A stretch of DNA of 8,037 nucleotides from Acidobacteriaceae bacterium (lineage in GTDB: Bacteria; Acidobacteriota; Terriglobia; Terriglobales; Acidobacteriaceae), in the NCBI GenBank assembly GCA_009781125.1, contig WQYS01000096.1, forward strand, positions 1 to 8,037. The letters run 5' to 3'. Under the pieces are notes generated by a model. It worked only from the letters and a program-made list of their open reading frames with translations, made no database searches and was not told the DNA's origin. How positions within the stretch are numbered: position 1 is the stretch's first letter; each line of letters opens with the position of its first letter. Position numbers and translations under genes: made by a program. Shown in pieces: positions 2 to 8,037 of this stretch.

Positions 2-1069
2 GGCCTGCTGAAGCTCTTTCTCGGCTACGCTCCCGGCGTAGGCAAGACCTACAACATGCTGAGTGAGGCCATCCGCCGCCGCACCAGGGGTGAAGACATT
101 GTGATCGGCGTGGTCGAGACCCACGGCCGCGTAAAGACCGCCGAGCTGGCCGCGCAGCTCGAACACGTTCCCAAGAAGAAGGTCGAGTACAAGGGCGTCA
201 TATTCGACGAGATGGACCTGGACGCCATCCTGGCGCGCAAGCCGCAGATCGTGCTCATCGACGAGCTGGCCCACACCAATATAGAGGGCAGCCTCCACCG
301 CAAGCGCTACGAGGACGTCATCGACCTGCTCGACGCCAATATTGACGTGCTCGCCACCATGAACGTGCAGCACATCGAGAGCGTCGCGCCCACGGTGCAG
401 AGCATCACCGGCATCCAGATCCGCGAGATGGTGCCGGACTGGTTCGTGCACCGGGCCGATGAGATCGTGATGGCCGACCTGACGCCCGAGGCTCTGCAAA
501 CGCGCATGCGCCGCGGCGACATCTACGGCACCGACCGCGCCGAGAAGGCGCTGGCCAACTTCTTCCGCCGCGGCAATCTGATTGCACTGCGCGAGCTGGC
601 GCTGCAGCACGTCGCCAAGGCAGTCGACCGCAATCTGACGGCCTACATGGACGCCAAGCGTATCCGCGAGAACTGGGCCGTGCGCGAGCGGGTGCTGGTC
701 TGCATGAGCTCGCATATCGCCTCGCAGACGCTGATTGCGCGCGGCCTCCACCTGGCTGAGGGCGTGGGCGGCGAGTTCTTCGTGCTCCACGTGGAGACGG
801 GCAGCGACGATGAAGATCGGCGCGCACTCGACGCCAACCTGCAGTTCGCGCGCAACCTGAACGCGCAGATATTTAACGTAAAGGGGAGAAGCGTCGCTCA
901 CGCGGTGGCGCAGTTCGTGCACGAGAACCGCATCACGCATGTCATCTTTGGCCGCTCCGCCGTCCGCGGCTTTCGCAAGTACGTTTACTACTGGGCGCTG
1001 CAGCACTTTCTCAACGAGGCTCCCACGGTGGACGTGCACATCGTCACGCAACGCGGGGAACACGCATGA
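2..1069 (+). CDS. kdpD: Short KdpD-type osmosensor (KdpD domain plus USP domain, no kinase), 5' partial
   Basis: This is the sensory half of the K+-responsive KdpD protein, cytoplasmic in known homologues. The frame is open from base 2, so the N-terminus (about 10-25 residues judging from E. coli KdpD) lies outside the window. The 355 visible residues show a Walker A motif GYAPGVGKT (residues 8-16), the family segment VVETHGR (37-43), a Walker B-like IVLIDELAHTN (83-93), MNVQHIES (120-127) and PDWFVHRADEI (145-155). A USP-like domain follows from about residue 230 to the end. The protein stops there: the four transmembrane helices, GAF region, HisKA and HATPase domains of full-length KdpD (about 900 residues in E. 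coli) are absent. Short KdpD proteins are known from Anabaena and Deinococcus, so this is probably natural, not a broken gene. The stop overlaps the kdpE start (ATGA), implying translational coupling. How it signals without a kinase is unknown. Confidence 0.9.
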   Translation, partial: GLLKLFLGYAPGVGKTYNMLSEAIRRRTRGEDIVIGVVETHGRVKTAELAAQLEHVPKKKVEYKGVIFDEMDLDAILARKPQIVLIDELAHTNIEGSLHRKRYEDVIDLLDANIDVLATMNVQHIESVAPTVQSITGIQIREMVPDWFVHRADEIVMADLTPEALQTRMRRGDIYGTDRAEKALANFFRRGNLIALRELALQHVAKAVDRNLTAYMDAKRIRENWAVRERVLVCMSSHIASQTLIARGLHLAEGVGGEFFVLHVETGSDDEDRRALDANLQFARNLNAQIFNVKGRSVAHAVAQFVHENRITHVIFGRSAVRGFRKYVYYWALQHFLNEAPTVDVHIVTQRGEHA

Positions 1070-1776
1070 CTCCACCCGCGGCTCAGGCCAAGATACTTCT
1101 CGTCGATGACGAGCCGCAGATTCTGCGCGTGCTGCGCGCGGCGCTCTCGGCGCAGGGATACTGGCTGCGCACGGCATCCAACGGCAGCGAAGGTCTGGCG
1201 GTTGCGCACGAGTGGAAGCCGGACCTCGTCATCACGGATGTCTCTATGCCGGAGATCAACGGCGTCGAGCTGTGCCGCGAACTGCGCGCCGTCTCCGATG
1301 TGCCCATTCTGATCCTCTCGGTGCGCACCCAGGAGCGCATGAAGATCGAGGCGCTCGACGCCGGCGCGGACGACTACGTGACTAAGCCCTTCAGTATTCA
1401 GGAGCTAGAGGCCCGAGTCCGCGCTCTGCTGCGCCGCGCGCAGATCACAGCGCCTGAGACCAAGCCCGTGCATGCGCTCGGCGATTTCGTTATTGATACC
1501 TTGCAACATCGCGTGCTGGTTCGCGGTGTGGAGATTCACCTTACGCCGAAGCAGTTCGATCTGCTGCTGGTGCTGGCCGAGCATCCCGGCGAGGTGCTCA
1601 CCCATCGCGCTCTGCTGTACGCCGTGTGGGGAACTAACGCCGATCAGCCGGAGTATCTGCGCGTTAACATAGGCCAGTTGCGCAAGAAGATCGAGACTAC
1701 CAGCGAGCCGCGTTACATCCTCACCGAACCGTGGATCGGCTACCGCTTCCGGCCTATGGGCAAAGAGGATTTGTAA
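1066..1776 (+). CDS. kdpE: KdpE-type OmpR/PhoB-family response regulator
   Basis: A cytoplasmic DNA-binding response regulator of 236 residues, normal for KdpE, expected to activate the kdpFABC high-affinity K+ uptake operon when phosphorylated. The receiver domain (about 8-122) has the acidic pair D14/D15, phosphoacceptor D58 in the context LVITDVSMPE, the switch residue S85 and K107 in TKPF. The C-terminal winged-helix DNA-binding domain (about 136-232) has the typical LTPKQFDLLLVLAEHPGEVL and VNIGQLRKKIE segments, and it ends with the family's YILTEPWIGYRF. The start ATG overlaps the kdpD stop by four bases, and a GGGGAA stretch 5 bases upstream is a weak ribosome binding site, so coupling to kdpD is likely. 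No kinase gene accompanies it here, so the phosphate donor must be encoded elsewhere. The assignment to KdpE instead of another OmpR-type regulator rests on sequence character and on the kdpD neighbour. Confidence 0.93.
   Translation: MTPPAAQAKILLVDDEPQILRVLRAALSAQGYWLRTASNGSEGLAVAHEWKPDLVITDVSMPEINGVELCRELRAVSDVPILILSVRTQERMKIEALDAGADDYVTKPFSIQELEARVRALLRRAQITAPETKPVHALGDFVIDTLQHRVLVRGVEIHLTPKQFDLLLVLAEHPGEVLTHRALLYAVWGTNADQPEYLRVNIGQLRKKIETTSEPRYILTEPWIGYRFRPMGKEDL
1764..1769 (+). promoter_or_regulatory. Ribosome binding site for the flavin reductase gene
   Basis: AGAGGA lies inside the last codons of kdpE, nine bases before the ATG at 1779. It supports that start over an in-frame ATG at 1731, which lies deep inside kdpE and would add 16 residues that are merely an out-of-frame reading of the kdpE end. 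Confidence 0.6.
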
Positions 1777-4612: not shown

Positions 4613-7228
4613 ATGCGCCGCATCTCTCGCCGCAAGCTGCTTCGTTCCGGACTTACGCTCTCTGCCGCATCGGCGGCGAACCTCTCCGCGTGGGCGCGCG
4701 TTGCTGAGAAGATCGCCGCTTCGGCCTCGCCCATGGTCATGGTTGAGGCCGAGACCTTCGCCGCGCGCGGCGGATGGGTCGTGGACCAGCAGTCTGCCTT
4801 CCAGATGGGATCCTCGTACCTGATGGCCCATGGCATGGGAGTTCCGGTAGAAGATGCGCGCACCGAAGTTGCTGTTCCCGTATCTGGCTCCTACCGCGTG
4901 TGGGTGCGCACGCGCGACTGGGTGGCGGAGTGGAAGGCTCCGGGCGCTCCCGGGCGCTTCAAGGTCGAGGTTGACGGCAAGCTGCTGGAGACCGTCTTTG
5001 GCGTTAGAGGCGGAGAGTGGCACTGGCAGGATGGCGGCGTCATCGATCTGCGGGCGGGCAAGGTTCCGGTCGCACTGCACGATCTGACCGGATTCGCAGG
5101 CCGCTGCGACGCCATACTCTTTGCCGCTGATGCGGATTTTGTTCCGCCCAACATTCTTGCGGAACAGGCTGCCTTTCGCAAGCAGGTCTTGCGCCTGCCG
5201 GAGCATCCAGAGGACGCGGGCCGGTTCGATTTGGTCGTGGCTGGCGGAGGAATGGCGGGGACGGCGGCAGCCATAACGGCGGCACGGCTGGGACTCAAGG
5301 TTGCGCTGATTCAGGACCGCCCGGTGCTGGGCGGCAATACCAGTTCGGAGATTCGCGTCGCTCTGGGCGGCGTCATCAATCTTCCTCCTTATCCCTCTAT
5401 CGGGGTCGTGGTGGGAGAGCTTGATCCTAATAAGCCCGGTAATGCAGCCGCAGCGGCCAACTACGGCGACGAGCAGAAACTTGATCTGGTGCGGGCAGAG
5501 AAGAACATCAGCCTGTTTCTCAACACGCGCCTGTTTTCAGTTGAAAAGCAGGATGGCAAGATTGAGTCCGTCACTGCGCGCGAGATACTTACGGGCAGGG
5601 ATCTGCGCTTCCGCGCTCCGCTGTTTGCCGATTGCACGGGCGACGCCACGCTGGGCTATCTGGCCGGAGCCGACTTCCGCTACGGACGCGAAAGCCGCGC
5701 CCAGACCGGCGAGCCGCTGGCTCCGGAGGTGGCCGATAACTTCGTCAACGGAGCGTCGGTGATGTGGTACTCGGAGGACGCGGGCAAGCCGTCGCCGTTT
5801 CCTGAGACTCCCTGGGCCATGCAGTTCAACGAGCAGAGTGTTCAGAACGCCGCGCGCGGAGACTGGGACTGGGAGCTGGGTCATCGCTTCAATCAGATCA
5901 CCGATTTCGAGCGCGTCCGCGACGCCGCCTTCCGCGCCATCTACGGCAACTGGTCGTTTCAGAAGAACAGCTACTCGCGCAAAGAGGAGTTTGCAAACCT
6001 GCGTCTGGCCTGGGTCTCGTCAATCGGCGGCAAGCGCGAGTCGCGCCGCCTGATGGGAGACGTCATCATCCAGCAACAGGATATCGCCGACCAGCGCAAG
6101 TTTCCCGACGGCTGCGTCACCGCCACATGGCCTATCGACCTGCACCACCCGGATACGAAGAACGCTGAGTACTTTCGGAGCGAAGCCTTTCGCACGGTCG
6201 CGGATTTCGGTGAGAAGATGCCTTATACCATTCCCTATCGCTGCCTGTACTCGCGCAACGTCGGCAACCTTTTCATGGCGGGGCGCAACATCAGTGTCAC
6301 CCACGTGGCGCTGGGCACGGTTCGCGTGATGCGCACCACGGGCATGATGGGCGAGGTGGTCGGCATGGCGGCGGCTATCGCGCGCGCGCGGGATACTTCA
6401 CCGCGTGGAGTCTATGAGAGTTATCTGCCCGAACTGATTGCTTTCATGACGCGCGGCGTGGGCAAGACCGCTCTTGCGCCTCCTCCGAAGAGCTCGGTTC
6501 CGGCAGGCTACACGCTGGCCTGGTCGGACGAGTTCGACGGCGACGCGCTCGACGCCGCCAAGTGGGACTACCGCACGGACAGCAAGTGCTGGAGCACGCA
6601 GGTTCCGCAGAACGTATCGGTTGGCGGCGGCAATCTGATGGTTGCTGCTACGTCAGGCACCAGAGAGTCGCTCGGCACCGGCGTCATCGTGCCCTGCCTC
6701 TCGAATGATCCCCCTGGGACGTTCAACGGCAGGTACAACGGCGGTGGCGTCATCAGCAAGGCAGCCTTTGGCTATGGCTACTACGAGTGCCGCATGCGCG
6801 TGATGGTCGGCAAAGGATGGCACTCGGCGTTCTGGCTGCTGCGGCACGATGGCTCGGGCAGCGCAGGCAGCTCGCTGGCGGACCTGGAGTTCGATGTGAT
6901 GGAGAACGATTCCGTCTCGCTGCACTCGTATGAGATCAACATGCATCAATGGAAGGGCGCGCGCAGCGACTTCGGCAACAAGACAGTCAAGACGCCGCCG
7001 CTCTCGGACTATCACGTCTACGGCTACGAATACACGCCCGAAAAGGCGAACTACTTTTTTGACGGCGAGCTGGTGCATTCGGTCGATATAAAGTCCCTGC
7101 CGCAGGCCGAGGTGAATATCTGGCTTACTCTCATCGCGGCTGGTTTCAACGATACCGACGCGGTCGATACGACGCGGCTGCCCGGACACGTGTATGTCGA
7201 CTACGTTCGCTTTTACAAAAAGGCCTGA
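4613..7228 (+). CDS. Tat-exported FAD-dependent oxidoreductase fused to a GH16 glycoside hydrolase
   Basis: This 871-residue protein has four parts. Residues 1-28 form a twin-arginine signal (SRRKLLRSG at 5-13, then a mild hydrophobic stretch ending AWA), fitting export of a cofactor-loaded enzyme. Residues 41-175 are a beta-sandwich-type domain (VEAETFAARGGWVVDQQ, YRVWVRTRDWVAEWKAPGAP, EWHWQDGG, LHDLTGFAGRCDAI) like the golvesin/xanthan-lyase binding domain seen in front of related oxidoreductases. Residues 205-612 are an FAD_oxidored-type enzyme: GxGxxG in VVAGGGMAG (208-216), PVLGGNTSSEIR (237-248), ADCTGDATLG (339-348) and MAGRNISVTHVALGTVRVMR (555-574). After a Pro-rich linker (about 620-632), residues 633-871 are a complete GH16 domain: LAWSDEFDG at its start and the catalytic motif EFDVME with E759 as nucleophile, D761, and E764 as acid/base. 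It probably oxidises and/or cleaves a beta-glucan or galactan outside the cytoplasm. The substrate is unknown, and family members of the oxidoreductase are poorly characterised. No frameshift or internal start is seen at the junction. Confidence 0.88.
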   Translation: MRRISRRKLLRSGLTLSAASAANLSAWARVAEKIAASASPMVMVEAETFAARGGWVVDQQSAFQMGSSYLMAHGMGVPVEDARTEVAVPVSGSYRVWVRTRDWVAEWKAPGAPGRFKVEVDGKLLETVFGVRGGEWHWQDGGVIDLRAGKVPVALHDLTGFAGRCDAILFAADADFVPPNILAEQAAFRKQVLRLPEHPEDAGRFDLVVAGGGMAGTAAAITAARLGLKVALIQDRPVLGGNTSSEIRVALGGVINLPPYPSIGVVVGELDPNKPGNAAAAANYGDEQKLDLVRAEKNISLFLNTRLFSVEKQDGKIESVTAREILTGRDLRFRAPLFADCTGDATLGYLAGADFRYGRESRAQTGEPLAPEVADNFVNGASVMWYSEDAGKPSPFPETPWAMQFNEQSVQNAARGDWDWELGHRFNQITDFERVRDAAFRAIYGNWSFQKNSYSRKEEFANLRLAWVSSIGGKRESRRLMGDVIIQQQDIADQRKFPDGCVTATWPIDLHHPDTKNAEYFRSEAFRTVADFGEKMPYTIPYRCLYSRNVGNLFMAGRNISVTHVALGTVRVMRTTGMMGEVVGMAAAIARARDTSPRGVYESYLPELIAFMTRGVGKTALAPPPKSSVPAGYTLAWSDEFDGDALDAAKWDYRTDSKCWSTQVPQNVSVGGGNLMVAATSGTRESLGTGVIVPCLSNDPPGTFNGRYNGGGVISKAAFGYGYYECRMRVMVGKGWHSAFWLLRHDGSGSAGSSLADLEFDVMENDSVSLHSYEINMHQWKGARSDFGNKTVKTPPLSDYHVYGYEYTPEKANYFFDGELVHSVDIKSLPQAEVNIWLTLIAAGFNDTDAVDTTRLPGHVYVDYVRFYKKA

Positions 7229-7251
7229 TGCGTTCATGGGATGCCTGGGGC

Positions 7252-7260
7252 TGATACACT
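7252..7260 (+). promoter_or_regulatory. Extended -10-like element placing the M2 peptidase start at +1
   Basis: TGATACACT contains the TGn extension and hexamer TACACT (7255-7260). The ATG begins at 7268, seven bases after the hexamer, exactly where transcription would be expected to start, so the mRNA may be leaderless. No Shine-Dalgarno sequence lies in the 15 bases before the ATG. The only G-run (7247-7250) is upstream of the element itself. Confidence 0.5.
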
Positions 7261-7267
7261 TCCGAAC

Positions 7268-8037
7268 ATGCGAGTGTTTCGAGTTGTATTTATTGCAGCC
7301 CTTCTAGCTTTCATTCCGATGTTATCCGCCGAGACCAAGCCCGCCGCCTCTGAGACGAAGCCGACCGTGGCCGAGGCCCAGGCTTTCATGGTGAAGGCCG
7401 AGGCCGAGCTTCTGGCTGCGGCCAACGAGTCCAGCCGCGCCAGTTGGGTGCAGGAGACTTTCATCACCGACGACACCGAGGCCATCGCCGCCAAGGCCAA
7501 CGAGCGCTACATGGTGTTAACCAACGATCTGGTGATCGCGGCGCGGCGCTTCGACGGCCTCCAGATGCCGCCCGATCTGGCGCGCAAGTTCATGCTGCTG
7601 AAGCTGAACGGATCGCCCACCGACCCGAAGCTGGTGGCCGAGCTTTCGCAGGTCTCTGCCGCGCTCGATGGCATGTACGGCAAGGCGAAGTATTGCCGCC
7701 AGGCGGCGCCGTCGGCTACAGGTCCGGGTGAGGAGTGTTTCGGAATCGATGAGCTTGACGTGCTGATGGCGAAGTCGCGCGATCCGAAGGAGCTGCAGGA
7801 CCTCTGGGTGGGATGGCACAAGATCGGCGTGCCTATGCGCGTGAAGTATGCGCGCATGGTCGAGCTGTCGAACCAGGGCGCGACGGAGTTCGGCTACAAG
7901 GATACGGGAGAGCTGTGGCGCTCGGGCTACGACATGACTCCGGCGGAGTTCTCCGCCGAGCTGGAGCGGGTGTGGACGCAGCTTGAGCCTCTCTACAAAG
8001 AGCTGCATGCTTATGTTCGCTTCAAGCTGATCCAGAA
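7268..8037 (+). CDS. M2-family (ACE-like) peptidyl-dipeptidase, 3' partial
   Basis: The frame stays open to the window end, giving the first 256 residues of a zinc dipeptidyl carboxypeptidase related to angiotensin-converting enzyme. Family members are roughly 600-700 residues, so the zinc site HEMGH lies beyond the window and activity cannot be judged. Residues 1-21 are a Sec signal peptide (basic MRVFR, hydrophobic VVFIAALLAFIPML, small residues SA before the likely cut), so the enzyme is exported. The mature part matches M2 well: ASWVQETFITDDTE (58-71), LDGMYGKAKYC (133-143), the cysteine pair C143/C157 that corresponds to a conserved ACE disulfide, LDVLMAKSRDPKEL (163-176), the W180-x-x-W183 region, VELSNQGATEFGY (198-210), ELWRSGYD (215-222) and PLYKELHAYVRFKL (241-254). 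The start follows a -10-like element with no ribosome binding site. It probably releases dipeptides from peptides in the periplasm. It begins 39 bases after the GH16 fusion gene but likely has its own promoter. Confidence 0.92.
   Translation, partial: MRVFRVVFIAALLAFIPMLSAETKPAASETKPTVAEAQAFMVKAEAELLAAANESSRASWVQETFITDDTEAIAAKANERYMVLTNDLVIAARRFDGLQMPPDLARKFMLLKLNGSPTDPKLVAELSQVSAALDGMYGKAKYCRQAAPSATGPGEECFGIDELDVLMAKSRDPKELQDLWVGWHKIGVPMRVKYARMVELSNQGATEFGYKDTGELWRSGYDMTPAEFSAELERVWTQLEPLYKELHAYVRFKLIQ

Follow-up and report, generated by a model that had tools for sequence, protein, structure and literature searches.

The 8,037-nucleotide stretch of acidobacterial DNA analysed here (contig WQYS01000096.1 of an Acidobacteriaceae bacterium, referred to as the window) carries a gene at positions 4613-7228 of the forward strand in which a twin-arginine translocation (Tat) type signal, a flavoprotein domain of the FAD_oxidored family (FAD, flavin adenine dinucleotide) and a glycoside hydrolase family 16 (GH16) domain follow one another on a single chain. 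FAD_oxidored-GH16 is a conserved architecture, found mainly in one clade that is probably acidobacterial. At about even odds (a probability of roughly 0.5), the product is read as an exported two-enzyme polypeptide attacking a beta-linked polysaccharide, in which the FAD domain is the core and GH16 one of several exchangeable partners. The features of the gene are as follows:

4613-7228, forward strand: coding sequence for 871 residues, comprising Tat-type signal, N-terminal beta domain, FAD_oxidored, linker and GH16 (open reading frame and Pfam)
4613-4705, forward strand: twin-arginine type signal, about residues 1-31 (SRRKLLR), recognised by eye and by regular expression
4733-5137, forward strand: N-terminal domain rich in beta-strands, about residues 41-175, with a weak likeness to Golvesin_C (secondary structure of the model; sub-threshold PF25275)
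5228-6412, forward strand: FAD_oxidored PF12831, residues 206-600 (Pfam match; model)
5243-5260, forward strand: GGGMAG flavin glycine motif, residues 211-216 (motif in the sequence)
6470-6508, forward strand: Pro-containing linker, about residues 620-632 (sequence)
6509-7222, forward strand: GH16 domain, residues 633-870 (PF00722 match at 708-864; model superposition over 632-870)
6887-6904, forward strand: GH16 catalytic motif EFDVME, residues 759-764 (motif in the sequence)

The open reading frame of 871 residues is uninterrupted, and together with the Pfam matches and the fused relatives it bears out the first-pass annotation, made from the sequence alone, which had described one continuous polypeptide with an export signal, FAD_oxidored and GH16. 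Its N-terminus, MRRISRRKLLRSG, is readable by eye as a twin-arginine signal and a regular expression also matches SRRKLLR; this reading relies on the Tat consensus, and export itself is predicted. The FAD_oxidored match (E 4.1e-75, 254 bits against a cut-off of 27) contains the GxGxxG flavin motif as GGGMAG from residue 211, and the Glyco_hydro_16 match (E 7.1e-13, 48.8 bits against a cut-off of 22) contains the ExDxxE motif with all three acids, E759, D761 and E764, correctly numbered in that annotation. From these features both domains look intact, joined by the short Pro-containing linker ALAPPPKSSVPAGY (about residues 620-633). The mean predicted local distance difference test score was 84.4 for the full-length model and 91.9 for the FAD domain modelled alone, and the predicted structure had the jelly-roll GH16 fold, superposing over residues 632-870 on laminarinases. 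The part first described as a binding domain is the weakest: a strand-rich N-terminal domain is present, but its Golvesin_C match (PF25275, residues 46-101, E 0.0019) reached 18.7 bits, under the cut-off of 31.6, and at E up to 1 this family was matched by 16 of the 35 fused proteins described below.

A search with the window protein found 7,994 proteins in 8,000 scored candidates, and 35 of the best 120 listed, counting the query, had FAD_oxidored followed by a GH16-like domain, all 35 matching PF00722 at E up to 1. How common the architecture is, which the first-pass annotation could not say, can thus be answered with this count, one main clade and a likely second origin. The 34 other fused proteins are at 50-69% identity and lie on other contigs from several data sources; those with names come from a Terracidiphilus sp. 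(P0021), an uncultured Paludibaculum (P0029), an 'Acidobacteria bacterium' (P0020) and a Planctomycetaceae (P0079), and the named members of the main fusion clade are Acidobacteria. An artefact of assembly or sequencing that fused two adjacent genes was considered, as the exact window protein forms a cluster of its own and is known from a single contig of 8037 bases; however, this explanation is rejected, since full-length relatives with the fused architecture occur on other contigs. The near-constant GC content over the linker (0.657 at 6250-6549 and 0.640 at 6400-6699) also speaks against an assembly error at that point.

Among characterised proteins, the GH16 model superposes on laminarinases and beta-1,3(4)-glucanases (ZgLamC, 4crq; SCLam, 6xof/6xqf) with 25-29% identity, from which the window protein differs in having its GH16 fused behind a flavoprotein. 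The closest GH16 sequence relatives among those listed are uncharacterised stand-alone proteins. Stand-alone FAD_oxidored proteins have the same N-terminal and FAD domains as the window protein (60-70% identity) but lack GH16, and 55 of 115 classified rows stop after the FAD domain. The joining of a redox module to a hydrolase or a glycan-binding module on one chain is already known as a principle from fusions of lytic polysaccharide monooxygenases with glycoside hydrolases and from cellobiose dehydrogenase, which rely on copper or GMC/cytochrome chemistry, whereas the window protein has FAD_oxidored instead. In a literature search, no paper on this architecture and none assigning a function to FAD_oxidored proteins was among the matches listed. 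As described for GlycDH and beta-eliminases (PMC10628242), flavin oxidation of a glycoside is coupled to bond cleavage by separate proteins, and the likeness is only an analogy in how the system works, with an eliminase there and a GH16 on the same chain here. A fold search was performed with the FAD domain folded alone, because the search with the whole model was filled by GH16, and no GMC-type sugar oxidase was among the 50 matches listed, a result that carries no evidential weight. GlycDH is presumably GMC-like, and GMC families were absent from the 24 Pfam families matched by the 35 fused proteins at E up to 1.

According to the preferred reading, the Tat-type signal would export the FAD_oxidored-GH16 polypeptide, the GH16 domain would cut the polymer, with a beta-1,3- or 1,3/1,4-glucan likelier than a galactan, and the FAD domain would oxidise or reduce a hydroxyl on that glycan or on the oligosaccharides set free from it, its electrons passing to a putative acceptor. 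It is plausible that both domains act on one polysaccharide. FAD_oxidored proteins are widespread. Because GH16 chemistry is well understood, the fusion offers a way towards the substrate, in that the glycan cut by GH16 gives a hint of the one met by the flavin domain.

The history of the fusion was followed in a tree of the FAD part with 115 rows (P0018, P0089, P0094, P0113 and P0118 of the 120 being left out) and in a tree of the GH16 part with 87 rows, in which 52 of the 120 best GH16 relatives were used. In the former, 34 fused proteins, all except P0079, fell in one clade of 42 rows with a Shimodaira-Hasegawa-type (SH) support of 99, together with eight relatives without a full GH16 domain. 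This clade consists of 18 rows whose signals lack the twin arginine and of a 24-row branch holding all 21 matches to a loose twin-arginine pattern. In the GH16 tree, the 34 fused proteins and 11 single-domain or fragment relatives formed one clade of 45 rows (SH 99), surrounded by secreted GH16s that stand alone. On these sequences, the simplest reading would be that a stand-alone GH16 joined a FAD_oxidored protein once in the main lineage. P0058 and P0123 resemble two pieces of a single gene, divided by a frameshift or in gene calling, and the tails of P0034 and P0036 are unusual.

Moreover, a second fusion was observed in P0079 and the partial P0241 (83% identical), which have FAD_oxidored and a GH16 with an intact motif in the same domain order. 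On the FAD side, a tree of 62 hand-picked rows, including the nearest stand-alone relatives of these two, rejected a single clade of all fusions (approximately unbiased test, p-AU 0.0005), and P0079 shares 66% identity with the stand-alone P0242 versus 49-54% with the other fusions. Two fusion origins appear likelier, while a single origin followed by exchange of the FAD part is also possible. The second fused lineage, together with genes lying near one another elsewhere, suggests that the two activities belong together.

The breadth of the family was assessed in sampled genomes. At E 1e-40, P0079 was matched in 142 of 288 genomes from the phylum of an Akkermansia metagenome-assembled genome (MAG), and at E 1e-25 the window protein was matched in 69 of 294 from the phylum of a Phycisphaerales MAG; no fused row was seen in either scan, which is weak evidence as only the best few candidates per genome were scored. 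For the phylum of the Holophagales genome G001, none of 396 genomes matched at E 1e-100, with uncertain coverage of the right acidobacterial classes, and 18 of 149 matched at 1e-12, the best FAD match being 42%. The class of G067 gave matches in 4 of 38 genomes at 1e-40, and viral contigs yielded no relative.

Outside the fusions, FAD_oxidored was found beside several glycan-active partners. In a Clostridia MAG (L003), 38 bases separate a GH16 gene from the FAD_oxidored-like gene downstream of it, which is in turn followed by DHDPS-family and FGGY-kinase genes. In Catenovulum and Persicobacter plasmids, which supplied two out of six annotated neighbourhoods inspected on plasmids, a FAD-dependent oxidoreductase gene occurs near GH16, GH2 and another glycoside hydrolase, the latter being GH43-like by Pfam in Catenovulum. 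A scan of 80 loci gave six with a FAD match, four of them also with GH16, a biased count as the scan used GH16 words. In further members of the family, FAD_oxidored has GH88 (P0089), WbsX (P0256) or a GDSL esterase (P0251) as its fusion partner, and P0086 and P0114 carry F5/8-type domains below the Pfam cut-off. These partners and neighbourhoods therefore tie the FAD family to glycans generally and not to GH16. Some FAD_oxidored proteins reach about 1,100-1,140 residues (P0054, P0067, P0070, P0117 and similar) and end in a C-terminal domain for which Pfam gave no confident match in the members scanned; in the 115-row tree, the C-terminal part measures 500-599 residues in 16 rows, and in P0070 and P0071 there is a weak GH127-like match (E 0.012). 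At another locus (L100), a GH16 related to that of the window is fused to a GH43-like domain (7190-9058, forward strand), with a gene for a 3-keto-disaccharide hydrolase (PF06439) nearby (11371-12192, reverse strand).

Several results weigh against the reading of a two-enzyme polypeptide. Of the 35 fused proteins, 18 have the E-D-E triad and 17 an altered one, with many different replacements. A Tat-type signal stands directly on GH16, with no FAD part, in P0122, P0126, P0127, P0129 and P0130, all inside the GH16 clade, and Tat-type FAD proteins without GH16 (P0038, P0039, P0040 and P0042) lie inside the FAD clade; therefore, the halves have separated again, and the first-pass annotation's own counter-case, orthologues in the form of two separate genes, is partly realised. 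P0122 is the nearest GH16 relative of the window protein on the GH16 tree (SH 97) and comes from a contig of 1,208 bases, while P0130 lies on a 96-kb contig; these single-domain relatives come mostly from short contigs of metagenomes, and a number of them may be broken genes or pieces cut off at contig ends. The proposal that Tat export would let the flavin load before secretion is weakened, because sister-branch fusions have signals without twin arginine and the architecture does not require this route. A single fusion clade was not rejected by the 115-row FAD tree (p-AU 0.106) or by the GH16 tree (0.326). Pairing with GH16 is not general for the FAD family, since, for the phylum of the Phycisphaerales MAG, 33 FAD loci viewed up to about 8 kb per side, in some cases cut by contig ends, showed no GH16 nearby. 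In the window itself, no further glycan gene was recognised by Pfam beside the fused gene. Among the matches listed for the FAD domain there was no close relative with a solved structure or a characterised function, which leaves the first-pass suggestion that this domain oxidises residues exposed by GH16 a hypothesis.

The altered triads bear on what the GH16 domain is for. Fifteen belong to the branch whose signals lack the twin arginine and the remaining two (P0015 and P0022) to the Tat branch, and at least two changes of state are needed on the FAD tree. For a comparison of rates, 17 intact proteins (P0079 left out) were set against 15 altered ones (P0015 and P0022 left out): the median GH16 distance was 1.09 times the FAD distance in the intact set (135 pairs) and 4.39 times in the altered set (105 pairs), whose FAD domains are mutually closer than those of the intact set. 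In the intact-motif set, GH16 is no passenger, because its constraint equals that of the FAD domain; the decay of GH16 beside a conserved FAD domain in the sister branch therefore makes the flavin core the constant element. It would follow that GH16 has been kept as an enzyme in the group of the window protein and relaxed or repurposed in the sister branch, and the latter represents a natural experiment on the purpose of the partner. The altered half of the fusions, like the single-domain relatives, weakens any claim that the covalent pairing is essential. The rejected candidates include an identity of the decayed GH16 with the 3-keto-disaccharide hydrolase family (PF06439), which none of the 35 proteins matched at E up to 1.

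A possible, though doubtful, explanation is that GH16 serves mainly as a glycan-binding or targeting module for the flavoenzyme, hydrolysis being secondary and dispensable. It would account for altered-triad proteins whose reading frame still runs on through GH16 and whose GH16 is not random but keeps 40 of the 97 positions conserved in the intact set, and the F5/8-type domains on other family members are compatible with it; on the other hand, the window protein has all three acids, the intact-set GH16 is as constrained as its flavin neighbour, and the GH16-only Tat relatives retain ExDxxE. An unlikely option is that the two activities are independent within one pathway and that the fusion, perhaps nearly neutral, merely secures joint expression and export. 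The halves do occur apart with the same Tat signal, and unfused FAD and GH16 genes probably share contigs, for example P0059 with P0136: between 74 FAD-side rows and 120 GH16 relatives there were four exact coincidences of contig size where 0.19 would be expected, and in three of the four the sources agreed. However, the fusion has been retained in most of the 42-row clade, and the second fusion repeats the same domain order.

A broader proposal, which we regard as improbable, is that FAD_oxidored proteins are exported oxidases or dehydrogenases of glycans which have acquired glycan-active partners again and again. In the clade of the window protein the partner would be an active GH16, whereas in the sister branch a GH16 fold without its hydrolytic acids would have taken on the binding, or even the cleavage, of the oxidised (keto-)glycan coming from the flavin domain.

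Judged by the equal length of their longest contig (27,313 bases for both), P0031, a fusion with a lost GH16 motif, seems to share a contig with P0142, a stand-alone GH16 that has kept its motif, a pattern that would fit supply of the missing activity in trans.

As for the rest of the window, a partial gene for an M2-family peptidase (angiotensin-converting-enzyme type, PF01401, E 9e-49; 7241-8037, forward strand) begins 12 bases past the fused gene's stop codon and is truncated by the end of the window. At the other end (56-1776, forward strand), a KdpD sensor domain (PF02702) is encoded in a 337-residue open reading frame that lacks a kinase domain and may be missing part of its N-terminus at the edge of the window, and this frame overlaps a response-regulator gene (PF00072, PF00486) by four bases.
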